Shown one piece after another: positions 3,395-18,319 of a DNA stretch of 24,220 nucleotides. The notes beneath the pieces are model-generated. The model did not search any database. It was given only the letters and a program-made list of their open reading frames with translations, and was not told the origin of the DNA. The position numbers and the translations under genes were made by a program. Within the stretch, counting starts at the first letter, position 1, and the number at the start of each line of letters is the position of its first letter. Source of the DNA: a virus; IMG/VR virus record IMGVR_UViG_3300004012_000014, positions 1 to 24,220 of that record; one strand, 5' to 3'.

Positions 3395-4042
3395 TTAATT
3401 ATTATTCAGCTCGTTAACCTCTAAGCTTATTAATTGTTTTACAGTTTCAATAAATATATCGTCCTTCATTTTTTGAAAAATATTTAATGCTTCAAATGGT
3501 ACTAAACAGCTATGAAGTTTTTTTGATCTGTCTGTAACAGGTGCATATTTCCAGCCATTATCTAATTTAGCTTTTTCCCATTCGTCGTGCATATCATAAG
3601 CGGTTATTTTAGGATTATTAAAAACCGCTTCAACCGTTTTTAAAACCTGGTTTTTTCTTTCTTGATTTAAATCGTTCCAGTTTTCTATTTGATCTTCATT
3701 ATTATATTTTCTTACTATTTGTAATACATTAAATGCCACTTTTCCAATAAATTCTTTTTTATTCATAATTTTTAATTCTCCTTTATTTTTTTCTTCAATA
3801 AAATGTTGATTTAATTTTTTATTCATATTTTTAAATACTGTATAATGAGCTTTCAAGTTGAATTCTGCATTTTCTACAGTTCCCAAGTAAACAAAAACAT
3901 GATTTATTCTGTTTGTTCCTTTATATTCAAAATCGCTTTTTGTTTTTAAATACTCTATAAATTTATATGGATAATAAGATTTTGCTATTCTTACATTTGT
4001 TTTATCTCTTCCAGGTCCTAATCTAAAAGTTATTTTTGCCAT
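3395..4042 (-). CDS. RyR-domain protein
   Basis: This is a 215-residue protein. Residues about 130-205 (AYDMHDEWEKAKLDNGWKY, then KLHSCLVPFEAL and DDIFIETVKQLI) match the RyR domain, first described in ryanodine receptors and widespread in phage and bacterial proteins. The family pattern is H..W......GW.Y.......K.H.CLVP....L. The N-terminal half (1-110) is not recognised. Phage RyR domains have been proposed to bind nucleotide-type ligands or act in conflict systems, but no role is proven. The ribosome binding site is AAAGGAGAATGA before the ATG at 4042. Confidence 0.8.
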   Translation of the reverse strand: MAKITFRLGPGRDKTNVRIAKSYYPYKFIEYLKTKSDFEYKGTNRINHVFVYLGTVENAEFNLKAHYTVFKNMNKKLNQHFIEEKNKGELKIMNKKEFIGKVAFNVLQIVRKYNNEDQIENWNDLNQERKNQVLKTVEAVFNNPKITAYDMHDEWEKAKLDNGWKYAPVTDRSKKLHSCLVPFEALNIFQKMKDDIFIETVKQLISLEVNELNNN

Positions 4043-8589: not shown

Positions 8590-9438
8590 TTACCCCTTAA
8601 CATCTGTATATAATCTTTTTAGAATAATTGCGATCTGTTCGCAATTAAAATAACTCAAATCCTTAGTTGTCATATACTTAGTACCTGTAATAAACTTCTT
8701 ATCATATAACCACTGTAAAAATTCATTTTTATAAATTTTACCTTTTGGCGGGTCCTGTACATTTTGTTTTAAATCTGTATAGACACGTTTTAAAATAGTT
8801 GCAATCTGTTCACAATTGAATTGTTTACTAGAATTATAATTAGTACCTGTAATAAACTTCTTATCGTGCAACCATTTTAAACTATCAGGATAATCAAAAA
8901 TATCTTTAGCCACTGGCTTTACCTCCTTCGCAAAAACGTTATTTCTAAAGTCTGTATATGCTTTGTTATTCCCGGATATTGTCAAATCAACAAACATTAT
9001 AGGACACAATTTCCTCGAAGCGTCATAATGTCTAATTAATTCTTTTGTATAACCTTCAGAATGCAAATGTCTAATGTATTTTATAGTATTTTCAACGGTC
9101 TTTGCAAAGTTACCGTCTTTATTAACACACATTTCTATACTTATTGTATTTGAATTTGTATAACCGTACTTACCTTTTCCGTCACCTATAGCCCAGCTAT
9201 AATATTTTGTCCAGTCGTTGATTTTCCATATTGAATTATCATCAATGAATACATCAGCCGAACTATTACGATTAGCACTATTGAAATATTCAAAATGTTT
9301 AGCACCATTAGCACCATTGTTATAATTGGCGGTATAGTGAACAACAATCGCTTTAATATCCTTTTTATTTCTTGTTTTTGGTGTCCTATTATATTTTATC
9401 TGTTTAGAATGATACAATATACCATTTATACTACCCAT
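8590..9438 (-). CDS. N-acetylmuramoyl-L-alanine amidase (endolysin)
   Basis: This 282-residue lytic enzyme cuts the lactyl-peptide amide bond of peptidoglycan. Residues 28-150 are an amidase_2 domain: AIVVHYTAN (His34), NTISIEMCV (Glu102), RHYDASRKLCP (His137, Cys145), the expected zinc ligands. The C-terminus holds two similar repeats of about 45 residues (SLKWLHDKKFITGTNYNSSK...FNCEQIATILKR and FLQWLYDKKFITGTKYMTTK...FNCEQIAIILKR), probably wall-binding modules. There is no signal peptide, so export would depend on the holin encoded upstream. The start at 9438 has AAAGGG in the leader. It is the last gene of the lysis cassette. Confidence 0.93.
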   Translation of the reverse strand: MGSINGILYHSKQIKYNRTPKTRNKKDIKAIVVHYTANYNNGANGAKHFEYFNSANRNSSADVFIDDNSIWKINDWTKYYSWAIGDGKGKYGYTNSNTISIEMCVNKDGNFAKTVENTIKYIRHLHSEGYTKELIRHYDASRKLCPIMFVDLTISGNNKAYTDFRNNVFAKEVKPVAKDIFDYPDSLKWLHDKKFITGTNYNSSKQFNCEQIATILKRVYTDLKQNVQDPPKGKIYKNEFLQWLYDKKFITGTKYMTTKDLSYFNCEQIAIILKRLYTDVKG

Positions 9439-9464: not shown

Positions 9465-9662
9465 TTAAAATTTATCTGGTGTTTTAGGATTGTTTAAAAT
9501 ACCAAAAACAACTAAAGCAGATAAAACAACATCTGTTGCATTTTTTAATGTTTCTAACTGTAAATTATCAAGTATTCCAAATTGATTAAATAATAATAAT
9601 ACAGTTGATATAATACTAATCCATACAATTTTACTTTTAAGTCTGTTTTGCAAATTACTCAT
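9465..9662 (-). CDS. Holin, phi LC3 type
   Basis: This 65-residue membrane protein forms the lysis lesion that releases the amidase. It has a basic start (NLQNRLKSKIVW), a hydrophobic segment at about 11-30 (WISIISTVLLLFNQFGI), a short loop and a second hydrophobic segment ending VVFGILNNPKTPDKF. That end matches the GIVNDPTTKG-type end of the phi LC3 holin family. It lies between the XhlA-like gene and the amidase, the normal order. Confidence 0.88.
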   Translation of the reverse strand: MSNLQNRLKSKIVWISIISTVLLLFNQFGILDNLQLETLKNATDVVLSALVVFGILNNPKTPDKF

Positions 9663-9687: not shown

Positions 9688-9951
9688 TTACCCTATATAA
9701 CCAAAAATTTTAGCTATAATTAAAATTAACGTTCCCGAGGCGGTCAAAATTCCAGTTATCGCCCCACTTACGGCGGTAATTCTTTTTATTGACCATTCAG
9801 CTTTTTTATTACAATTATTTCTATTTGATTGGCATTGTTCTTTACTAACCATATCATCAAGCTTTTTGTTTACCTGTTTGAATCCTTCCATGGTTTCAGC
9901 TCTCAGATTTTCAATATTTTTATTAATCATGTTTATAATTTGGTTATCCAT
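9688..9951 (-). CDS. XhlA-like haemolysin/holin accessory protein
   Basis: This 87-residue protein has an N-terminal amphipathic coiled coil (IINMINKNIENLRAETMEGF, KQVNKKLDDM), a Cys-containing middle (CQSNRNNC) and one C-terminal membrane segment (about 61-85: VSGAITGILTASGTLILIIA). This layout fits XhlA-type proteins that accompany holins. Its ATG at 9951 lies inside the last codons of the upstream 48-residue gene, so translation is coupled. Confidence 0.78.
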   Translation of the reverse strand: MDNQIINMINKNIENLRAETMEGFKQVNKKLDDMVSKEQCQSNRNNCNKKAEWSIKRITAVSGAITGILTASGTLILIIAKIFGYIG

Positions 9952-10108: not shown

Positions 10109-10306
10109 TCAATCTAAATCTAATATAATTGATTTAATAGCCCACATTAAAGTTAATTCTAAATTTCTTTTTGCTAATGTTTTATATTCTCCATCTGGAC
10201 ATAAAGCAACTATTTCTTTTGAAAAATCTATACATGATTTTCTTAATTCTTTAATTCTTCCTAATTGCTTCATAGTTGGTGATTGATTCGTTAAACTTCT
10301 TTCCAT
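10109..10306 (-). CDS. Acb2/Tad1-like hairpin protein (putative cyclic-nucleotide sponge)
   Basis: This 65-residue protein (ATG at 10306, with GAAAGG about 11 bases upstream) has two helices: LGRIKELRKSCIDFSKEIVA, then LCPDGEYKTLAKRNLELTLM followed by WAIKSIILD. Helix, CP(D/S)..E turn, A...LE..(M/L)W..KSI is the pattern of the Acb2/Tad1 hairpin family (DUF7681-type). Those phage proteins sequester cyclic oligonucleotides or gcADPR and block CBASS and Thoeris. Function here is inferred from this pattern alone. It overlaps or abuts the DUF4406 gene upstream. A related protein is encoded at 15739-16005. Confidence 0.75.
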   Translation of the reverse strand: MERSLTNQSPTMKQLGRIKELRKSCIDFSKEIVALCPDGEYKTLAKRNLELTLMWAIKSIILDLD

Positions 10307-10310
10307 TTCT

Positions 10311-10637
10311 TCAAGACCTTTCATATAATATTTCTAATCCGTATTCTTTCACAACGTTGTGTTCTATTTTACAGCCTCTAGCATTTTCCCAACCTTTACA
10401 GAAATAAACTGCATTACATAAACTCATATTTTCAAGGCTTTTTGCCAAAAAACATAAAGGTATTTGAATAACTCCTCTTTCCTTCATTTTTTCATTAGAA
10501 TACCATTCGTCAGTAAATAAAGTATTTATAAATTCATACCCTTTTTCTTTGAATAATTTAATTGCCTTTTCTCTAGTTTCCTTTATTTCTGCTTCTGTCT
10601 TTCCTGCCATTGGTTGGCTTATCATTATTTTTTTCAT
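10311..10637 (-). CDS. DUF4406 nucleoside deoxyribosyltransferase-like protein
   Basis: This 108-residue protein matches the DUF4406 family, a Rossmann-like fold related to nucleoside 2-deoxyribosyltransferases. The start MKKIMISQPMAGKTEAEI gives the ISQPM(A/S)GK motif, then R..A...L...G, LAKSLENMSLCNAVYFCKGW, and ENARGCKIEHNVVKEYGL. The motifs expected of the family are intact. A role in nucleotide or NAD-type metabolism during infection is likely but unproven. AAAGGAGAATTG lies before the ATG at 10637. Placement directly next to an Acb2-like gene is suggestive. Confidence 0.85.
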   Translation of the reverse strand: MKKIMISQPMAGKTEAEIKETREKAIKLFKEKGYEFINTLFTDEWYSNEKMKERGVIQIPLCFLAKSLENMSLCNAVYFCKGWENARGCKIEHNVVKEYGLEILYERS

Positions 10638-10677
10638 AATTTTTCAATTCTCCTTTGATTTTATATATAAAATATAA

Positions 10678-10711
10678 CCTATGATAAATTTATTTATTTA
10701 TTTATCATAGG
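10678..10711. terminator. Strong hairpin, terminator-like on the plus strand
   Basis: CCTATGATAAAT pairs perfectly with ATTTATCATAGG around a 10-base loop, followed on the plus strand by five T residues. On the minus strand the following bases are TTATATTTTATA, so it is at best a weak terminator for leftward RNA. It may mark the 3' border of the tRNA-like RNA. No plus-strand gene precedes it. Confidence 0.5.
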
Positions 10712-10819
10712 TTTTTGGCAACACTGCATCATTTCAATAAAAGGATTTACTCAGGAATCAAACCTAAGACCGCCACCAGCTTTCAATTTATTTTTTCCCA
10801 TAACCCAGGGATTTTTTTA

Positions 10820-10833
10820 ATTAATTTACTAAC
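10820..10833. repeat. 14-bp direct repeat, copy 1
   Basis: ATTAATTTACTAAC also occurs at 10894-10907. The two copies bracket the three 15-bp tandem repeats, as if the segment between them had been inserted or expanded within the tRNA-like element. Confidence 0.75.
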
Positions 10834-10877
10834 ATTTACATTCCAATCATTTATATTCCAATAATTTACATTCCAAT
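10833..10877. repeat. Three tandem 15-bp repeats
   Basis: CATTTACATTCCAAT, CATTTATATTCCAAT and AATTTACATTCCAAT follow one another without gaps (10833-10847, 10848-10862, 10863-10877), differing at one or two positions. They sit in the insert of the tRNA-like element and could be iterons, protein-binding sites or repeated RNA motifs. Confidence 0.85.
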
Positions 10878-10893
10878 ATGGTCTTATTAAAAC

Positions 10894-10907
10894 ATTAATT
10901 TACTAAC
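10894..10907. repeat. 14-bp direct repeat, copy 2
   Basis: This is an identical copy of the repeat at 10820-10833, ending at the stem that replaces the anticodon arm of the tRNA-like element. Confidence 0.75.
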
Positions 10908-10957
10908 TGGTAGAGTTCTTCCATTAAACTATAAATCATATTGCAGTATTGGATTTT

Positions 10958-10985
10958 ATTATAATATTAATTAGAATAAATCCAA
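10958..10985 (-). promoter_or_regulatory. Possible promoter for the tRNA-like RNA
   Basis: A perfect TATAAT (10958-10963) with TTGGAT (10980-10985) 16 bases upstream on the minus strand lies just before the 5' end of the tRNA-like element at 10937. It also lies inside the hairpin GTATTGGATTT/AAATCCAATAC. The -35 matches consensus at only 4 of 6 positions. Confidence 0.4.
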
Positions 10986-11021
10986 TACCACTATCTATAT
11001 AAACCTATACAGGATAGGAAC

Positions 11022-11438
11022 CTACATTTTACCTTTTACCTGTTTCAGCTTATCTACATTAAGAGAATATTTTTTATTATTATCAATTATATCATTGTTA
11101 ACAGCTTTTCTAAATTCTGTTTCTTTCATACTTAATTCATTTTTCTTATTAATAAGAAATCCATAAAATTTATTATAATCATCTTTACCTTTATTATATA
11201 TATTTTGATTTTCCGCAACAAGTTTTTTAGTATCTTTTTTTAATTTTTCGATATCTTCTATAGACATTTTATTTATAACAATTTTTTCTATCAATTCTAT
11301 TGCCCTTAAATCGATATTATTTAAAGTAATTTCATTTATAGCTTTTTGCCCCTTCTCATTAATAGAATTAAGCAAAGCCGCAATACTTTCAACTTCATTT
11401 TTTAATTTTTCAATCTCACTTTGTAATTTTTCTATCAT
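11022..11438 (-). CDS. Coiled-coil protein paired with a ribbon-helix-helix gene
   Basis: This 138-residue protein is almost entirely coiled coil (IEKLQSEIEKLKNEVESIAA through KKDTKKLVAENQNIY), ending in a basic tail (KYSLNVDKLKQVKGKM). There are no cysteines, membrane segments or catalytic motifs. Its ATG overlaps the stop of the ribbon-helix-helix gene by 4 bases (ATGA), typical of a co-regulated pair. Partition-like, toxin-antitoxin-like or RNA-associated roles are all conceivable; the sequence does not decide. Confidence 0.72.
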   Translation of the reverse strand: MIEKLQSEIEKLKNEVESIAALLNSINEKGQKAINEITLNNIDLRAIELIEKIVINKMSIEDIEKLKKDTKKLVAENQNIYNKGKDDYNKFYGFLINKKNELSMKETEFRKAVNNDIIDNNKKYSLNVDKLKQVKGKM

Positions 11439-11602
11439 AATAACTCCTTTTTGATATTTATTTTTTTTAATAATAATTTGATAATTAAATCTTTCATAGT
11501 CGTATTATTATCTATGCAAAATTTTTTGACCTCATTTTTAAGTTTTCTTGATATTTCTATTGTTATCCTATCATCAAATTTATTATTATTTTTATCATTC
11601 AT
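11435..11602 (-). CDS. Ribbon-helix-helix DNA-binding protein (55 aa)
   Basis: The ATG at 11602 follows GAGGCGGTAAT. The 55-residue product has the RHH layout: strand DRITIEISRKL (11-21), helix KNEVKKFCIDNN (22-33), turn TTMKDL, and helix IIKLLLKKI. This is an Arc/CopG-type dimeric repressor fold. It lies directly downstream of the long structured region (11640-12145), whose 3' arm falls in this gene's leader, so the RNA could control its translation. It overlaps the following coiled-coil gene by 4 bases. Confidence 0.8.
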   Translation of the reverse strand: MNDKNNNKFDDRITIEISRKLKNEVKKFCIDNNTTMKDLIIKLLLKKINIKKELL

Positions 11603-11639
11603 ATTACCGCCTCATTTAATATCTTATGAAATATTTATT

Positions 11640-11662
11640 ATCAGTATATACAAACAGTGTAA
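11640..11662. repeat. Left arm of a 23-bp inverted repeat
   Basis: This arm pairs with 11790-11812 at 21 of 23 positions (two central mismatches). It closes a domain of about 175 nt that forms the 3' part of the structured RNA region, and ends 38 bases before the start of the ribbon-helix-helix gene. Confidence 0.85.
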
Positions 11663-11789
11663 GCTGAGCGATGCAATAATTTTCAAACTTTTTCATTTAC
11701 TATGCATTCTTGAATTCGTCAATTCTATTTACGCTGTATTAACTAGTATCTAGCATGTAAGCTCTATCTTAACCAAATTGTTAAGACCT

Positions 11790-11812
11790 TTACACCATTT
11801 GTATATACTGAT
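11790..11812. repeat. Right arm of a 23-bp inverted repeat
   Basis: This arm pairs with 11640-11662. Its outer end touches the AAGACCTT helix (11783-11790), so the two helices compete or form a pseudoknot. Confidence 0.85.
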
Positions 11813-11899
11813 TAAAAGTTGAGGGGATGACTACCCCTCTATTTGTTAAGGTCTTATGTTAACAAGTTTTCGCAACTTGTACTAACTGCCTTGCAAGTA

Positions 11900-11979
11900 A
11901 AGGACCGCCGGGAATCGAACCCGGATATATAAATATATTGGATAGCTAATCCATGGATAATTCCAACATCCCAAATCCT
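11900..11979 (-). ncRNA. tRNA-like domain with perfect T-arm and odd anticodon arm
   Basis: Minus strand: AGGATT (11974-11979) can pair with GGTCCT (11901-11906, two G-T pairs). Then come T8-G9, D-arm GGAT-GTTGGAATT-ATCC, a short anticodon arm TGGA-TTAGCTA-TCCA, an A/T variable arm of about 14 nt that can fold on itself (class II-like), and an ideal T-arm CCGGG-TTCGATT-CCCGG (11908-11924). The 5' acceptor strand is one base short, the anticodon stem is only 4 bp, and position 37 is T rather than a purine. A normal decoding tRNA is therefore doubtful. No CCA is encoded. A nominal AGC anticodon should not be trusted. Confidence 0.6.
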
Positions 11980-12151
11980 AACACAACCAACTTTACCCTC
12001 CGCCAACCATAACATTTTATATTTACTTAGGGCGTTTTAAAACGTTATTAAAATCTTTGCCCTCGTGGAATAGTTTTCTTTAAAGTCTGTAACTATTCTA
12101 AAAAAGACTAAAAATCTAATTAATAAAATTACTAAGCATAATCATATTATA

Positions 12152-12180
12152 ATTTTAACATTTTAACATTCAATTGTCAA
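12152..12180 (-). promoter_or_regulatory. Promoter of the structured RNA region
   Basis: On the minus strand consensus TTGACA (12175-12180) is followed after 17 bases by TAAAAT (12152-12157). The -35 lies in the last codons of the preceding coiled-coil gene. Transcription would begin near 12145 and run into the structured region rather than into a gene. Confidence 0.75.
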
Positions 12181-12565
12181 CTTTAATAATTTTAAAATCT
12201 TTTACATGTTCAAATAAATTTATTCCATATATATAAAAATTGGCATCTTGTTTTAATTTAAATTTTTCCTCTAATTCTACAGCAATTTTACTGTATTTAT
12301 CATATAAATCAAATATAGCATTTAAAAATTCTTCTTTTTTATCTTCTAATTCTTTTAATTTTGCTTTTTTTACTATAATTTTAGTATCTTTTTCATTATT
12401 AAATAAACTTTTTTGCCCTAAATCATTTTTTAAATATTTAATTTCTAAGTCATTATTATTAAAAGCCTTTTCACCTCTTTTAATATCAGATACTATTTTA
12501 TTTAAATTTATAATTAAATTCATTTTATTTTTTTCGTTTGAATCACAATAAAATTCATATTTCAT
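12170..12565 (-). CDS. Coiled-coil hypothetical protein of the replication operon
   Basis: This protein is 131 residues from the ATG at 12565 (GGAGG eight bases upstream; the TTG one codon earlier is less likely). It is mostly helical, with NLNKIVSDIKRGEKAFNNND and AKLKELEDKKEEFLNAIFDL segments forming coiled coils, and a short beta-like end (FYIYGINLFEHVKDFKIIKV). No family is recognised. It lies directly after the primase-helicase, so a replication accessory role is possible. Its last codons contain the -35 of the RNA promoter. Confidence 0.72.
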   Translation of the reverse strand: MKYEFYCDSNEKNKMNLIINLNKIVSDIKRGEKAFNNNDLEIKYLKNDLGQKSLFNNEKDTKIIVKKAKLKELEDKKEEFLNAIFDLYDKYSKIAVELEEKFKLKQDANFYIYGINLFEHVKDFKIIKVDN

Positions 12566-12577
12566 CAATATTTCCTC

Positions 12578-14404
12578 CTATTCCCAAGGTAAATTATTTT
12601 CAATTTCTAAATTTTTAATGTCTGCTTCTGGTTCTTTTTCTGGAATGTTTTCCAGGTTAATATATGTTTTTGGAAATTTATTAGGCTCAACAAATTGTTT
12701 ACATTTTGATATAAAGTCAAATTTTAAATGTGCTAAATCTCCAAACAATCTGTTTTTATTTATATGTATAAGTGTTTTACAACCAGCTTTGTCTAAATCT
12801 TCTTCGTCTACTCTTTGAATATTTAAAACTACATCGGGTCGGTCTGTATTCTCAGAACTCCCGGCAACATCATCATTTTTAAAATCTGCAACATTGTCTG
12901 TCTTTTTTGGGTGAGCCACAAAGATTACAGTAACTCCAAAATCATTAGCAAATTGTTTAAATTTCCCTATAAATTCACCTTGTGATTTATAGTAATTATT
13001 TTGTCCGTCAAATTGATTTCTGGCTGTCATTAAGTTATCAACCAAAAATAATCTACAGTTATTCCGCTTGTAAGCATATTCAAATATTTTCAATATTGAC
13101 CCCTCATCTAATCCCTTACGCTCTAGAACTGTATTATCATATAGAAATAATTTGTTATCTATCATATTATTTAATTGTTCCCAATATTCATCTGGCACAA
13201 TTTCAACTTTTTTTCCTCTGAATTCGTCATATTCCATCCCTACATTTTCGCCTAAAATTTGAAAAAACAGCCAGTTTTTAACCTGTTCAGGACTTAGTTC
13301 TCCTGAATACATACAGGCATTAAATCCAGATGTCACAGCTTCTACTATTGTTTGACTTGCAAAGGTACTTTTTCCGTTACCTCTTTTACCTGTAAGAAGA
13401 ACAAATTGCCCAGGTAGCCAACCACCAATTACTTTATTTATTGATTGGAAGCCAGTATCAATTCTATTTTCTTTATCTATTTTAAATTTTCCTATTTCTT
13501 TTACATTTATAAGTCCATCGATTGGAGGTAATTCAGCATTATCAATTAATTCTTTTAAATTTTTTTCGTTTTCTCGATATAAAAATTCATTTATATCATT
13601 GTAAGGATTTTTAACAGTTTTTACTCTATTTACCCCTAATTTTGATATGCTTTCATTTATAAACTTTTCCCCAGCTTCATCATTATCACCAAGTATTACA
13701 AAGTAAGGTACTTTTTCTAAGTCGTCCCAATGGTTGTCAATCCAAGCCCAGTCATTAGTTCCAAATGGTACACTGGTAACATTTTCATATCCTGACTGAT
13801 ATGCACACATACAGTCAATTTCCCCCTCAGTTATAATAAGTGGTTTACTAAAATCTAAATTATCATAATTAAAAAGTATTTCTTTGCCACCTTTTTCTTG
13901 CCAGGTTTTTATTTGACCTTTTCCCGGTTTTTGTGGTATTCTATATTTTATACACGTAAGTTTGTTTTTTTGATAGAAAGGGAAGACTATATTTCCTTTT
14001 CTATCTTCTTTTATGTTAAAATGTTTGATTGTTTCTTGCTTTAATTTTCTTAACTGTAAATATTTAAATCCTTTACTATTTTCTTTTATCAATTCATAAT
14101 TATCATTAAATACTTTATATTCTTTATGCTTTTTATTTTCCATTTTTGCCCCTTTAAACTCATTTTTTTTATTATAGTTGTTATTATTGTCTTTTTTATA
14201 TTCTACTCCATAATGGGCATATAATTGCGAAATATGACCATACTCATTACATTTACCTCTTTGACAATAATATGTTTCCTTGTCGACATTGAGAAAAAAT
14301 TTCCATTTATCATTATTTTTCCCACCTTTGCAAAATGGGCAAGTTTCAAACATAAGTTCAGAACCTTTTTTCTTATAATTCCCTAAATAATCTATTATTT
14401 GCAT
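12578..14404 (-). CDS. Replicative primase-helicase (zinc finger, TOPRIM, DnaB-like helicase)
   Basis: This 608-residue bifunctional replication enzyme resembles T7 gp4/Twinkle-type proteins. The N-terminal primase zinc finger has Cys22-x2-Cys25 and Cys47-x4-Cys52. A TOPRIM domain at about 188-260 has ITEGEID (191-197) and LGDNDEAG (238-245), the acidic metal sites. The RecA-like helicase has Walker A GKRGNGKST (339-347), Walker B RLFLVDN (451-457), VIFVAHPKK (493-501) and DVAGSSENTDRPD. It unwinds and primes the phage fork. GGAGGAAAACAC precedes the ATG at 14404. It sits directly after the replisome organizer, which would load it at the origin. Confidence 0.92.
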   Translation of the reverse strand: MQIIDYLGNYKKKGSELMFETCPFCKGGKNNDKWKFFLNVDKETYYCQRGKCNEYGHISQLYAHYGVEYKKDNNNNYNKKNEFKGAKMENKKHKEYKVFNDNYELIKENSKGFKYLQLRKLKQETIKHFNIKEDRKGNIVFPFYQKNKLTCIKYRIPQKPGKGQIKTWQEKGGKEILFNYDNLDFSKPLIITEGEIDCMCAYQSGYENVTSVPFGTNDWAWIDNHWDDLEKVPYFVILGDNDEAGEKFINESISKLGVNRVKTVKNPYNDINEFLYRENEKNLKELIDNAELPPIDGLINVKEIGKFKIDKENRIDTGFQSINKVIGGWLPGQFVLLTGKRGNGKSTFASQTIVEAVTSGFNACMYSGELSPEQVKNWLFFQILGENVGMEYDEFRGKKVEIVPDEYWEQLNNMIDNKLFLYDNTVLERKGLDEGSILKIFEYAYKRNNCRLFLVDNLMTARNQFDGQNNYYKSQGEFIGKFKQFANDFGVTVIFVAHPKKTDNVADFKNDDVAGSSENTDRPDVVLNIQRVDEEDLDKAGCKTLIHINKNRLFGDLAHLKFDFISKCKQFVEPNKFPKTYINLENIPEKEPEADIKNLEIENNLPWE

Positions 14405-14415
14405 GTGTTTTCCTC

Positions 14416-15207
14416 CTATATACCGTATTTTTTCTTTAAATATTCGTTTTGATCGTCTTGCTTAATAAAATCTATATAATCACCATTATAAAAAGTCGAG
14501 CCTAATTTTATAAACTGTTTTTCAGTATTTTTTACTTTGTTAGCATAATTAATTGTTGCGGACTTGACATTTTCTTTATCTTCATAGAGTTCTTTTAATT
14601 TTGCTTTGCTTCTAAGTATTTTATGTTTTCCTTCTTTGCGAGGGTATAACTTCCAAACTGTATCAAACCATTCTAATTGAATATCATAGTCATATTTAAT
14701 ACAGTTATTTTCTTTATTTATATCTTTCTCTTTTTCTTTCTCTTTCTCTTTCTCTTTCTCTATGTGACATTTTGTGACCTCTTGTGACTTTGTCACATTT
14801 AGTTGTGACTTTGTCACGTTTGGTTGTGACAATGTAACAATATTTTTTGCCCTACTTTTTCTTTTTCTTCTTGCGGCATCTGTCTCGCTTCCTATCATTT
14901 CGGCAACTCTAGTCATATAATAAGTATATTCGTCTAATTGTTCTATTAAATTATTTTTATGTAAAAATCCTAGAGCTATTTGCATATCTTCGATTGTTTC
15001 ATCTAATTCAAGACTCATTTCCTCTATAAATGATTCTTCAACATTTTCAAAAAATATTTTTCCTTCATTTTCAAGACTTAGCAATAATAATTTTTGATAA
15101 ATTAATATATAAGTAGCTCCACCTGATAATTTCATTAATTTTTTTAATGTTCTATCTTTAAAAAAATCAAAGGGTAATTTTAACCAATAATATTTTTTTT
15201 CTGCCAT
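14416..15207 (-). CDS. Phage replisome organizer (phage_rep_org_N family)
   Basis: This 263-residue protein should bind the phage origin and recruit the helicase. Residues 3-115 match the phage replisome organizer N-terminal winged helix: KKYYWLKLPFDFFKDRTLKK, SGGATYILIYQKLLLLSLEN, then a helical region ending DAARRKRKSRAK. The middle (about 120-155) is low-complexity: three NVTKSQ-like repeats followed by a run of alternating Lys-Glu, encoded by the iterons and a CT-rich repeat. The C-terminal part (WKLYPRKEGKHKILRSKAKL, then FYNGDYIDF) is the usual C-terminal domain of such proteins. The start at 15207 has AAAAGGAAGTGC upstream. Confidence 0.9.
   Translation of the reverse strand: MAEKKYYWLKLPFDFFKDRTLKKLMKLSGGATYILIYQKLLLLSLENEGKIFFENVEESFIEEMSLELDETIEDMQIALGFLHKNNLIEQLDEYTYYMTRVAEMIGSETDAARRKRKSRAKNIVTLSQPNVTKSQLNVTKSQEVTKCHIEKEKEKEKEKEKDINKENNCIKYDYDIQLEWFDTVWKLYPRKEGKHKILRSKAKLKELYEDKENVKSATINYANKVKNTEKQFIKLGSTFYNGDYIDFIKQDDQNEYLKKKYGI
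14726..14760. repeat. CT/GA tandem repeat coding for Lys-Glu
   Basis: A run of CTTTCT-type units (GAGAAA on the coding strand) encodes alternating Lys-Glu in the replisome organizer. This pure pyrimidine/purine tract borders the iterons and could vary in length by slippage or help local strand opening. Confidence 0.8.
14762..14844. other. Probable phage replication origin: phased iterons within the rep gene
   Basis: Five TGTGAC sites start at 14763, 14773, 14783, 14804 and 14825, spaced 10, 10, 21 and 21 bases, so all face one side of the helix. Three 21-bp direct repeats (14782-14802, 14803-14823, 14824-14844) hold the palindrome TTGTGAC-TTT-GTCACA, decayed in the third. Iterons inside the initiator gene are the arrangement of lambda O and several Gram-positive phage rep genes. 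An A/T-rich stretch and a CT tract flank them. Confidence 0.82.
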
Positions 15208-15363
15208 TTAAAGCACTTCCTTTTTTTCATTGAATAATTTGTGTATTGCTATATCAATAACTCGACTATCAGATAATTTATATTTTTCTGATAATTTTTT
15301 TAAAATTTCTTCTGTACTTGGATAAATAGTAATATTTTTTTTCTTAGTTAATTCTTTAGACAT
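15208..15363 (-). CDS. CopG-like ribbon-helix-helix regulator (51 aa)
   Basis: The true start is the ATG at 15363, preceded by GGAGGTTACAAA. The longer upstream frame lies in the promoter region. The 51-residue product has the RHH pattern: strand KKNITIYPS, helix TEEILKKLSEKYKL, turn SDS, and helix RVIDIAIHKLFNEKK. It is the first gene of the replication operon, behind a perfect promoter (15394-15422), so it probably represses its own operon. AGTATTAATACT at 15462-15473 is a candidate target, which is an inference. Confidence 0.82.
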   Translation of the reverse strand: MSKELTKKKNITIYPSTEEILKKLSEKYKLSDSRVIDIAIHKLFNEKKEVL

Positions 15364-15393
15364 TTTGTAACCTCCATAATTTATTATATATCT

Positions 15394-15422
15394 ATTATAC
15401 GCACAAAAGATATATAAGTCAA
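15394..15422 (-). promoter_or_regulatory. Promoter of the replication operon
   Basis: TTGACT (15417-15422) and TATAAT (15394-15399) are separated by 17 bases on the minus strand, 30 bases upstream of the ribbon-helix-helix gene. It reads away from the plus-strand promoter at 15477-15505. Confidence 0.87.
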
Positions 15423-15451
15423 TATTTATTTTATTAACAGTTTCCACAGAT

Positions 15452-15460
15452 TTATCCACA
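15452..15460 (+). promoter_or_regulatory. DnaA-box-like site
   Basis: TTATCCACA is a perfect match to the bacterial DnaA box consensus, with TTTCCACAG just before it (15441-15449). It lies midway between the two divergent promoters, a place where host DnaA binding could influence transcription or initiation. A single 9-mer may also be chance. Confidence 0.45.
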
Positions 15461-15461
15461 A

Positions 15462-15473
15462 AGTATTAATACT
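15462..15473. promoter_or_regulatory. 12-bp palindrome between divergent promoters (putative operator)
   Basis: AGTATTAATACT is a perfect palindrome placed four bases before the -35 of the plus promoter. It is a plausible site for the ribbon-helix-helix or AbrB-like regulators encoded on either side. Confidence 0.5.
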
Positions 15474-15476
15474 CGA

Positions 15477-15505
15477 TTGACTATGATTAATAATAATGAT
15501 ATACT
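15477..15505 (+). promoter_or_regulatory. Promoter of the plus-strand operon with degenerate operator
   Basis: TTGACT (15477-15482), 17-base spacer, TATACT (15500-15505). The spacer contains TGATTAATAATAA (15484-15496), which keeps the core of the early operator GGATTAATAATCC but has lost the outer bases. Also, GATTGACTATGATTA (15475-15489) is repeated exactly at 6346-6360. Confidence 0.85.
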
Positions 15506-15537
15506 AATTTTATTAAATAAGTTTGGAGGTAAAATCA

Positions 15538-15735
15538 ATGAAATTGCTTAGAAAAAATTATAAAGGTTTTGTAATAAGAAAATTATATCAAGGGAAAAAA
15601 AGTTCCCAATCATTAATATGTAATATTCCTTTTAAATTTGCGGAAAATTTAAAAATGAATCCTGGAAATTATGTAAAAATAATTGAAACAACCGAAGGAT
15701 TATTATTAAAAAAAATTAATATGGAGGATGATTAA
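15538..15735 (+). CDS. AbrB/MazE-like swapped-hairpin DNA-binding protein
   Basis: This protein has 65 residues from the ATG at 15538 (TTTGGAGGTAAAATCA upstream; the in-frame TTG at 15523 is part of that site). The segment SLICNIPFKFAENLKMNPGN, then YVKIIETTEGLLLKKI, follows the AbrB/MazE pattern (siP..fa..L.l..GdyV.i....dgL.l.ki). It is the first gene of the plus operon and probably its regulator. Confidence 0.78.
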   Translation: MKLLRKNYKGFVIRKLYQGKKSSQSLICNIPFKFAENLKMNPGNYVKIIETTEGLLLKKINMEDD

Positions 15736-15738
15736 AAA

Positions 15739-16005
15739 ATGGCTGATAAAGAAAAATATAACAAAGCAAATTTGTTATTTAAAACAATGAAAAGTTTAAC
15801 CAATATTAAACCTGACAACGATCAGGTTATAAAGATTGAAGATATAAGGATGGATTTTAAAAATCTATCAGCAAAAATAATTAATTATGGTTTGGACGAA
15901 TCATATTTAGAAGAAGCAATAAAAGCAATGGAATTAAGTCTATTTTGGACTTTAAAATCAATATTAGTTGTTGAATATGAAGATATGGGGAATGAAAATG
16001 AATAA
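15739..16005 (+). CDS. Acb2/Tad1-like hairpin protein, second copy
   Basis: This 88-residue protein has an N-terminal extension of about 30 residues, then two helices: IKIEDIRMDFKNLSAKIINY, a GLDES turn, and YLEEAIKAMELSLFWTLKSI. The order A...(L/M)E.(S/T)L.W..KSI is the same as in the protein at 10109-10306 (LELTLMWAIKSII). This suggests a second, divergent cyclic-nucleotide sponge of the Acb2/Tad1 hairpin class. The Pro of the usual CP(D/S)..E turn is missing, so ligand binding may differ. ATGGAGGATGATT serves as ribosome binding site across the end of the AbrB-like gene. Confidence 0.62.
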   Translation: MADKEKYNKANLLFKTMKSLTNIKPDNDQVIKIEDIRMDFKNLSAKIINYGLDESYLEEAIKAMELSLFWTLKSILVVEYEDMGNENE

Positions 16006-16034: not shown

Positions 16035-16484
16035 TTGAAATATGAAAGGACTTTAGAGTATTTTTTTGATAAGTATTTAGGTAGTCATATATCAATAGGA
16101 AAATTAACAATACATGGTCATAACGCCATGCACTGGGGAATAAATATCAGAACAAAAAAATACGGTTATATATGTTTTAGATTGCCATTCCCTAGCTTTT
16201 CAATTAATAAACCATTTTTTAGACCGCTTTATTTATATTTCAGTCCAAATGGTACGCCATGGGCTTCTACGTTTGCAATTGGGAAGGAACATAACAGACA
16301 CAATCACGATTTTACTAAAGCGAAGCTAAGAAAATTATATTTAGGTCATAATTTTGATACTGATAAATATTATGGTAAATTAAAGCAAATAAATAATTTT
16401 TATCCTGATAGCAAATTAACTCGAGACGAATATTTTAGAAAGGAAGCTAAGAAAATATATAATAGTTGCGATGATTATTATTAA
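16035..16484 (+). CDS. Hypothetical phage protein with a TTG start
   Basis: This 149-residue protein starts at the TTG at 16035, nine bases after GGAGGATAAGG; the nearby ATG at 16042 is out of frame. Aromatic- and His-rich segments include IHGHNAMHWGINIRTKKYGY, FRLPFPSFS, and LYFSPNGTPWASTFAIGKEH. The SPNGTPWAxTF stretch looks conserved and may be a beta-rich core. I do not recognise the family. Unlike most of its neighbours it is rich in Trp, His and Pro, which suggests an enzyme or structured binding domain. Confidence 0.7.
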   Translation: MKYERTLEYFFDKYLGSHISIGKLTIHGHNAMHWGINIRTKKYGYICFRLPFPSFSINKPFFRPLYLYFSPNGTPWASTFAIGKEHNRHNHDFTKAKLRKLYLGHNFDTDKYYGKLKQINNFYPDSKLTRDEYFRKEAKKIYNSCDDYY

Positions 16485-16507: not shown

Positions 16508-16945
16508 ATGGACCAAAAAGTAAATCCAACATTAGAAATAGAATTAATAAATGATTTTTTTGCTGGTCATGGATTTAAAAATGTATATGATTTTATGATG
16601 TTAGCAAAAAAAGGCAAGATTGTAATTTCTAATTTAGAAAAAGAAATACCTTCGTCTTGGTTTTATCAAAATCTAGTAAATTTTTTTGGGGATGAATACC
16701 AAATAAAAAAATCTATTGAAGAATTATTAGAATTAAGTTTAAATTTAACTATGATAATATCTAAAAATCTTGATAATAATAAAGAAAGAATAGGTATTAT
16801 TGAAGAAATGGCACATGTTTTAATGGTTTTTGAATCCTTAAAAATAGTTTTTGATATAAAAGAAAATGAATTAATAAAAGAAATTGAATCCAAAAAGGAA
16901 ATTTTAAAAGAAAAATTTCCAATTTTAAAAAGTGAGGGATATTAA
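16508..16945 (+). CDS. MazG-like all-alpha NTP pyrophosphohydrolase, altered metal motif
   Basis: This is a 145-residue protein. Residues 60-140 follow the MazG-like all-alpha NTP-PPase pattern: GDEYQIKKSIEELLELSLNL (Glu71/72/75), then RIGIIEEMAHVLMVFESLKI (Glu99/100), then ENELIKEIESKKEILKEKF. In the family the second motif is normally EE(I/M)AD(V), but here the Asp that binds metal is His103. Activity may be reduced or changed. The first 55 residues are an unrelated extension. AAAAAGGAGAAT precedes the ATG at 16508. Family members hydrolyse (d)NTPs or ppGpp-like nucleotides; the exact substrate is unknown. Confidence 0.75.
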   Translation: MDQKVNPTLEIELINDFFAGHGFKNVYDFMMLAKKGKIVISNLEKEIPSSWFYQNLVNFFGDEYQIKKSIEELLELSLNLTMIISKNLDNNKERIGIIEEMAHVLMVFESLKIVFDIKENELIKEIESKKEILKEKFPILKSEGY

Positions 16946-17462: not shown

Positions 17463-17776
17463 TTGCTAAATACAAATATTTATACCTAGCAAAATTTTTA
17501 ATATCTTTGCTAGGTATATTTTTTTGCTAATTACAAATTGCTAATTACAAATTGCTAAGTAAAAATTCTTGCCAGGTATAACATTGCTAAGTACAAATTA
17601 AATACAGTAAATTATAATTTCTTTTTAACCTTGCTAATTAAAAATATTGTTCCTAGCAATAATACAAAACTGCCACTAACTAGCATAAAAGTAGGTTTTT
17701 CTTCTCCTGTTTGTGGCAAAGTTTTATTATTAGCAATTGACTTGCTAGATTTATTTTTAATATTGCTAAGTACAAA
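17463..17776. repeat. Family of 14-bp repeats (TTGCTAANTACAAA)
   Basis: Copies start at 17463, 17524, 17538, 17552, 17584, 17631 and 17763 (with a weaker one at about 17940 and a degenerate one at 17569). Those at 17524, 17538 and 17552 are in tandem with a 14-base period. They run from the gap between convergent operons into the 3' end of the LPXTG gene, where they encode F(V/L)xS(N/K/R). No secondary structure or known element explains them. Confidence 0.8.
17481..17525 (+). terminator. Intrinsic terminator of the plus operon
   Basis: TATACCTAGCAAA pairs perfectly with TTTGCTAGGTATA (13 bp), followed by seven T residues at 17519-17525. It ends transcription of the plus operon and faces the oncoming tail operon. 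Confidence 0.9.
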
Positions 17777-18319
17777 ATTGCTAGATTCATTGCTAGGTAA
17801 TATTGGGGAAATAGTAGGATTTAAAATAGGTGTTATAATTGTTTCTGTGGGTTCTGGTGGTGTAACTGGTAAAGTAATTATTGGTGTTATAGTTGGTTTA
17901 TCTGTAATAGTTGGTGTTGGTGTAGATATTATTTCATATCTGCTAACTACAAAATAAAACCAATAATATAAATTATCATAGTCTCCAAGTTCATTTTGTT
18001 TTTCAACTTTTATAAATAATATCTTTAATCCTTTTTTTAAGAATTTTTCACTGTAACCAGAATAAACTAAAATATCATTTTCATAACTTTTCATATCGAT
18101 TATACAATATGGATTTAATGTAGTTATTGAATCACCTACATTAATTTTATTTCCATCAATTGTAACATTTGTATCATATTTTGGTTGATTATCTATTTGG
18201 TCAATAGGTGTTATTTTCTTAAAAAATACCTTATATTCATATTTTGTATCGGCATAAGACAAAGTTATGAATGAAAATAAAAAGACTATTATAAGTATAA
18301 AACTAATTAATTTTTTCAT
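17612..18319 (-). CDS. LPXTG cell-wall-anchored surface protein (moron)
   Basis: This 235-residue secreted protein has an N-terminal signal peptide (MKKLISFILIIVFLFSFITL, cleavage near SYAD). A beta-rich domain (25-130: YEYKVFFKKITP through YYWFYFVVSRYEI) is followed by a Pro/Thr-rich wall spacer (133-175). The sortase signal is complete: LPQTG at 201-205, a hydrophobic segment (FMLVSGSFVLLLGTIFLIS) and a basic tail KVKKKL. Host sortase should couple it to peptidoglycan. It is the last gene of the tail operon and is not a known virion component, so lysogenic conversion, receptor masking or adhesion are plausible. Its C-terminal codons carry copies of the 14-bp repeat family. Confidence 0.88.
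   Translation of the reverse strand: MKKLISFILIIVFLFSFITLSYADTKYEYKVFFKKITPIDQIDNQPKYDTNVTIDGNKINVGDSITTLNPYCIIDMKSYENDILVYSGYSEKFLKKGLKILFIKVEKQNELGDYDNLYYWFYFVVSRYEIISTPTPTITDKPTITPIITLPVTPPEPTETIITPILNPTISPILPSNESSNFVLSNIKNKSSKSIANNKTLPQTGEEKPTFMLVSGSFVLLLGTIFLISKVKKKL

Follow-up and report, generated by a model that had tools for sequence, protein, structure and literature searches.

The IMG/VR virus record IMGVR_UViG_3300004012_000014, analyzed here as a 24,220-bp stretch (the window), encodes two small helical proteins, A and B, which are homologous to each other, which are placed in the Acb2/Tad1 hairpin superfamily by homology and predicted fold, and which have both lost two conserved residues of the ligand pocket. 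The interpretation favored here, with chances judged to be about even, is that A and B are divergent, hairpin-only Acb2/Tad1 sponges with a changed ligand, possibly a TIR-made ADP-ribose derivative. As proposed, both proteins would be produced during infection as small oligomeric sponges, which would capture and retain a nucleotide-type immune signal. The pocket of both, with a stacking Tyr and a turn Arg lost and a basic residue in helix 1 and a Lys late in helix 2 present, would be shifted off the canonical Acb2 ligands, and the target would most plausibly be another signal. An ADP-ribose derivative produced by TIR proteins is proposed as an example, since the same phage encodes a RyDEP-like candidate protein against such molecules.

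Homology and family membership

A preliminary description of the window had reported two related open reading frames (ORFs) in different operons on opposite strands, with different turn sequences (LCPDGEY in A vs YGLDESY in B), and all of this was borne out. BLASTP aligned A and B without gaps at 33% identity over 60 amino acids (E = 9e-11 as a single comparison), while phmmer scored the real pair at 25.3 bits, about three times the highest score among 2000 shuffled versions of B (≤8.1 bits), and gave E values of 5e-6 to 8e-6 among 8635 ORFs. A matches the Pfam family PF24729 (Acb2_Tad1_hairpin) with 30.6 bits, above the cutoff of 27, and PHROG 1454 with an E value of 2.6e-10. B had no PF24729 match in the Pfam scan, and its score against PHROG 1454 was only 14 bits (E = 0.083). 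A family hidden Markov model (HMM) that included A but not B scored B at 20.0 bits (E = 2e-4 among the 8635 ORFs); without A, the score was 12.0 bits, barely over the best shuffle at 10.4, suggesting that the sequence link of B to the family runs mainly through A. The assignment of B to the hairpin superfamily through its homology to A and its predicted fold is nevertheless supported, and a chance resemblance was ruled out by the shuffles, the orthologs of B and the fold.

An ortholog of B, 57% identical, occupies the same operon in the related phage IMGVR_UViG_3300036647_000025 (G441; terminase 94%, helicase 80%). The ratio of nonsynonymous to synonymous substitution rates (dN/dS) between the two genes is 0.37, and gene B is, by this measure, under purifying selection. 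In all, B orthologs were found in four other phages, including 3300035128_000027 (71% identical) as well as 3300033291_000004 and 3300035211_000046, where the B-type genes lie just upstream of holin and endolysin genes; helix 1 is well conserved in the closest orthologs. In a phylogenetic tree, A, B and the G441 ortholog group apart from the rest of the family with 98/95 support, subject to a long-branch warning. An origin of A by duplication of B is not claimed from this grouping, which is supported but has long branches.

Predicted structures

AlphaFold2 (AF2) models of A (predicted local distance difference test score, pLDDT, 87; helices 4-11, 18-41 and 46-68) and B (pLDDT 84; helices 2-20, 27-49 and 54-83) contain no strands, and each consists of a leading helix followed by two long antiparallel helices, with no beta-domain. 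The Acb2 protomer is likewise built from a leading helix and two antiparallel helices, while Tad1 combines a beta-sheet with two helices (PMC12043709). The earlier assignment to an Acb2/Tad1 family is thus retained at the level of the hairpin superfamily, for A by Pfam and for B by homology to A and fold, whereas Tad1 membership was ruled out for both proteins by the lack of a beta-domain in either model.

In Foldseek searches of BFVD with the B model, the best hits were mostly annotated 'Acb2/Tad1 hairpin domain', with probabilities near 1 and a best E value of only 4e-3. The top PDB match of A was T4 Acb2 with cyclic GMP-AMP (cGAMP) (Foldseek probability 0.99); its VIA Z score against T4 Acb2 was 6.4, level with unrelated helical proteins. 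The top VIA match of B was Acb2 homolog 43 with 3' cyclic ADP-ribose (3'cADPR; PDB 9PTQ), with a Z score of 7.8 and a root-mean-square deviation of 1.5 over 61 positions.

Residues of the ligand pocket

In an ungapped alignment, Y8 of T4 Acb2 corresponds to Y11 of PaP2 Acb2 and to the Tyr in FxYH, a motif of the family. This stacking position is occupied by Asn in A (N13), in B (N22) and in all four B orthologs. At the Arg of the family motif SREKS, equivalent to PaP2 R67 and Tad1 R90, A has Glu46 and B has Ser55, and the residue is Glu, Ser, Asn or Thr across A, B and the B orthologs; PaP2 R67 is assigned to trinucleotide binding. The basic helix-1 residue represented by PaP2 K26 and T4 K23, a residue of the Acb2 pocket, survives as Arg in both proteins (R28 of A, R37 of B). 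Late in helix 2, at the site of T4 R79 and PaP2 R85, A and B have Lys (K64 and K73), in contrast to the Ala of most sampled family members; Ile or Leu occupies the site of T4 F82 in the two proteins. The preliminary description had named the absence of pocket residues from both proteins as grounds for rejecting its reading; the Tyr and the turn Arg are indeed gone from both, while the K26-equivalent basic residue remains. Experimentally, a Y8A substitution in T4 Acb2 disrupts cyclic dinucleotide binding, and F82 stacks on the ligand (PMC12657218).

Among sampled family members, both the Tyr and the turn Arg were present in 41/41, a conservation that is biased because the loci were gathered by family motifs; in a wider set, the protein of Brevibacillus phage Jenst has Ala in place of the Arg, and Streptomyces members have Phe in place of the Tyr. 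A signature of S-x-T-N, R37 and K73-S74 (B numbering) is common to B, three of its orthologs and A, and was recognized by eye in the fourth ortholog.

Comparison with characterized proteins

Acb2 (PaP2 p26, PDB 8H2J; T4 Vs.4, PDB 7UQ2) resembles A and B in size, in its hairpin-only architecture with a leading helix, in the basic residue at K26/K23 and in a Lys or Arg near the end of helix 2, and differs at Tyr 11/8 (Asn in A and B), PaP2 R67 (Glu/Ser) and T4 F82 (Ile/Leu). Since the defining residue that has been tested is gone, A and B are not safely called Acb2. Acb2 homolog 43, whose sequence matches the family profile best among solved structures (E = 2.6e-7), is also hairpin-only, but unlike A and B it has the Arg of 'GREKS', and its identity to B over the structural alignment is ~10%. 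Tad1 of Clostridium botulinum (PDB 7UAV, 8SMD) shares the two-helix hairpin, and its segment SRENACALTHVEEALMW aligns with family helix 2; in contrast to A and B, it carries an N-terminal beta-sheet that completes the pocket for glyco-cyclic ADP-ribose (gcADPR). A belongs, at ~30% identity, with the PHROG 1454/PF24729 hairpin-only genes of Bacillota and actinobacterial phages, nearly all sampled members of which have both FxYH and SREKS, whereas A and B have neither.

In Paenibacillus and Brevibacillus phages (MH460826, KT151955 and others), some hairpin genes are labeled 'phosphomannomutase' or 'putative phosphomannomutase', which is probably a misannotation.

Candidate ligands and alternative functions

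The window also encodes a protein with an RyR domain (Table 1), in which H152, W155, H177 and D194 correspond, with identical spacing, to H75, W78, H100 and D117, the four ligand or catalytic residues of RyDEP. The same residues occur in G441, where two genes separately encode the N-terminal part and the RyR domain; this additional N-terminal region of the window protein is a difference from RyDEP. RyDEP (phage DyoEdafos gp78) acts on TIR-made cyclic ADP-ribose (cADPR) as an enzyme or a sponge, and the homologs tested were mostly sponges rather than enzymes (PMC13232231). On the basis of these residues, the window protein is a RyDEP-like candidate for degrading or sequestering cADPR isomers. 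RyR and hairpin genes occurred together in 2/49 other records (virus record G023 and Gordonia phage UBSmoodge), a count for which there is no base rate, and the co-occurrence is suggestive only as a pointer to a TIR-type ligand. By analogy with PDB 9PTQ, described as 'Acb2 homolog 43 in complex with 3'cADPR', a hairpin-only protein could in principle bind gcADPR.

Several observations weigh against retuned sponges with a TIR-derived ligand. Loss of two conserved pocket residues would equally fit a loss of nucleotide binding. The AF2 alignments included family members, which pulls the models toward the family fold; Z scores of 6 to 8 are weak for helical proteins, and since the VIA values of 6.4 and 7.8 fall where unrelated helical proteins score, the fold alone would not decide the matter. 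The RyR gene is separated from A by ~6 kb and from B by ~12 kb, and no RyR match was obtained in two other phages with B-type genes, making the link from the RyR protein to a TIR signal circumstantial.

If other residues stood in for the lost Tyr and Arg, A and B could be ordinary sponges directed against the cyclic oligonucleotide-based antiphage signaling system (CBASS), still binding cyclic di- and trinucleotides. This is regarded as unlikely. It is in keeping with the shared superfamily, the retained R28/R37, the placement of K64/K73 at T4 R79/PaP2 R85 and the cGAMP complex of T4 Acb2 as the top structural match of A; however, the Tyr whose substitution disrupts dinucleotide binding by T4 Acb2 is Asn in A, B and the four orthologs, and none of these proteins has the turn Arg.

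It is likewise improbable that both hairpins have lost the binding of immune signals and serve another role, for example as regulatory or scaffolding helpers in an early operon or near lysis genes. Such a role would accommodate the loss of both canonical nucleotide-contact residues, the position of A and of the B-type genes of two other phages next to holin and endolysin genes, and the conservation of helix 1 in the closest B orthologs. Yet the characterized members of the hairpin family are, to our knowledge, all nucleotide sponges, helix 1 retains its basic residue, and A shows the presence-or-absence pattern of accessory cargo, in the manner of anti-defense genes.

The preliminary description had instead divided the ligands, with one hairpin sequestering CBASS nucleotides and the other the gcADPR of Thoeris. 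The two turns do differ, and the top solved match carries 3'cADPR for B and cGAMP for A. However, the key substitutions are shared by A and B, which gives no basis for assigning them different ligands; they also group together (98/95, with long branches), and their top matches are level in score with other helical proteins. A division of labor is unnecessary because one Tad1 protein can bind ligands of both classes (PMC12043709), and this proposal is considered very doubtful.

Beyond the favored interpretation of sponges with a changed ligand lies a more far-reaching version, offered tentatively and with considerable doubt: the proteins bearing SxTN, the Arg and Lys-Ser, with neither stacking Tyr nor turn Arg, may form an unrecognized hairpin-sponge subfamily that has switched to a signal not taken by known Acb2. 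In combination with the RyDEP-like protein, two such sponges might give this phage layered protection from TIR-type immunity. The phage might in addition evade Panoptes, a guard of cyclic dinucleotides.

Genomic context

Table 1. Coordinates and supporting evidence for features of the window
Feature	Position	Strand	Evidence
RyR-domain protein, RyDEP-like candidate	3395..4042	-	PF02026, 43.3 bits > 27.4
Endolysin amidase, downstream of A	8590..9438	-	PF01510, E 5.1e-14
Holin, downstream of A	9465-9662	-	PF04531, 23.8 bits > 22
Small 87-aa protein, downstream of A	9688-9951	-	phrog_297
Gene A, hairpin protein, 71 aa	10109..10324	-	PF24729, PHROG 1454, AF2
DUF4406/nucleoside 2-deoxyribosyltransferase-like gene	10311..10637	-	PF14359, E 3.5e-8; phrog_355, E 3.2e-20
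Promoter-like site of B operon, TTGACT-N17-TATACT	15477..15505	+	Sequence inspection
First gene of B operon, 70 aa, unclassified	15523..15735	+	ORF with Shine-Dalgarno; G441 ortholog 61% identical
Gene B, hairpin protein, divergent subfamily, 88 aa	15739..16005	+	33% identity to A, orthologs, AF2, Foldseek, dN/dS
149-aa protein after B in operon	16035..16484	+	phrog_32401, E 5.4e-14; orthologs beside B in G441 and L185
MazG-like nucleoside triphosphate pyrophosphohydrolase candidate, B operon	16508..16945	+	phrog_2245, E 1e-8

Gene A starts at ATG 10324 or, alternatively and as in the preliminary description, at ATG 10306 (65 amino acids; AAAGG 10 nt upstream), and its start is overlapped by the end of the DUF4406 gene. 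Neither gene had a match in the corresponding region of G441, and the two therefore look like a possible accessory cassette; in the searches of this analysis, A was found in its own phage only. Gene B, preceded by GGAGG, comes second in an operon on the plus strand that has a promoter-like site of its own.

The GC content is ~25% across most of the window, and the host is a low-GC Gram-positive bacterium. A longer copy of the phage, IMGVR_UViG_3300025563_000008 (G001; 38,869 bp), encodes A and B at 100% identity and, beyond the window, a terminase, an SPP1-type portal, more structural genes and a Rep_3-type replication initiator (PF01051, PF21205; L156:10410-11240), which hints at a phage-plasmid lifestyle. 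Adjoining the tail genes of the window, a 235-amino-acid protein (17612-18319, minus strand) begins with a signal-peptide-like segment, carries an LPQTGE sortase-type anchor at its C-terminus, and is only 56% conserved in G441 (dN/dS 0.56); from these sequence features, it would be a phage-encoded surface-anchored protein of the Gram-positive host.

Distribution of hairpin genes

No match to B was found by tblastn in INPHARED phages or PLSDB plasmids or by peptide patterns in GTDB genomes, and none to its G441 ortholog in the phages searched. Across 391 Clostridia genomes, a profile of A/B-type proteins gave just weak matches, within long frames or to the ordinary family. For ordinary family members, phmmer searches of the fetched loci revealed no conserved linkage to DUF4406 or lysis genes. 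One hairpin-only gene beside a probable lysis cassette was seen in a Clostridia genome (L147:1477-1662), where a predicted 61-amino-acid Tad1-like hairpin without a beta-domain lies between probable holin and amidase genes.

A second hairpin copy was clear in one of 44 virus records picked for carrying a hairpin gene (IMGVR_UViG_2627853777_000004), with one further weak match inside a 442-amino-acid frame, and in the phage database every matching record had a single hairpin place (69/69 and 229/229). These two-hairpin counts are lower bounds, since divergent copies like B would escape. The second copy in one phage record (L035:16257-16562) follows a Cys-rich, zinc-finger-like N-terminus, and similar extensions occur in L073 and L074.

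Implications

If A and B do not bind an immune signal, annotation as 'Acb2/Tad1 hairpin' would be insufficient for calling a gene anti-CBASS. If they do, they would represent a hairpin-sponge subfamily without the two residues that recognize the known ligands of the family, showing how widely a fold this small can be adapted, and could indicate an uncharacterized bacterial alarm molecule. With a RyDEP-like gene present in this phage, the guess at that ligand becomes concrete and testable.

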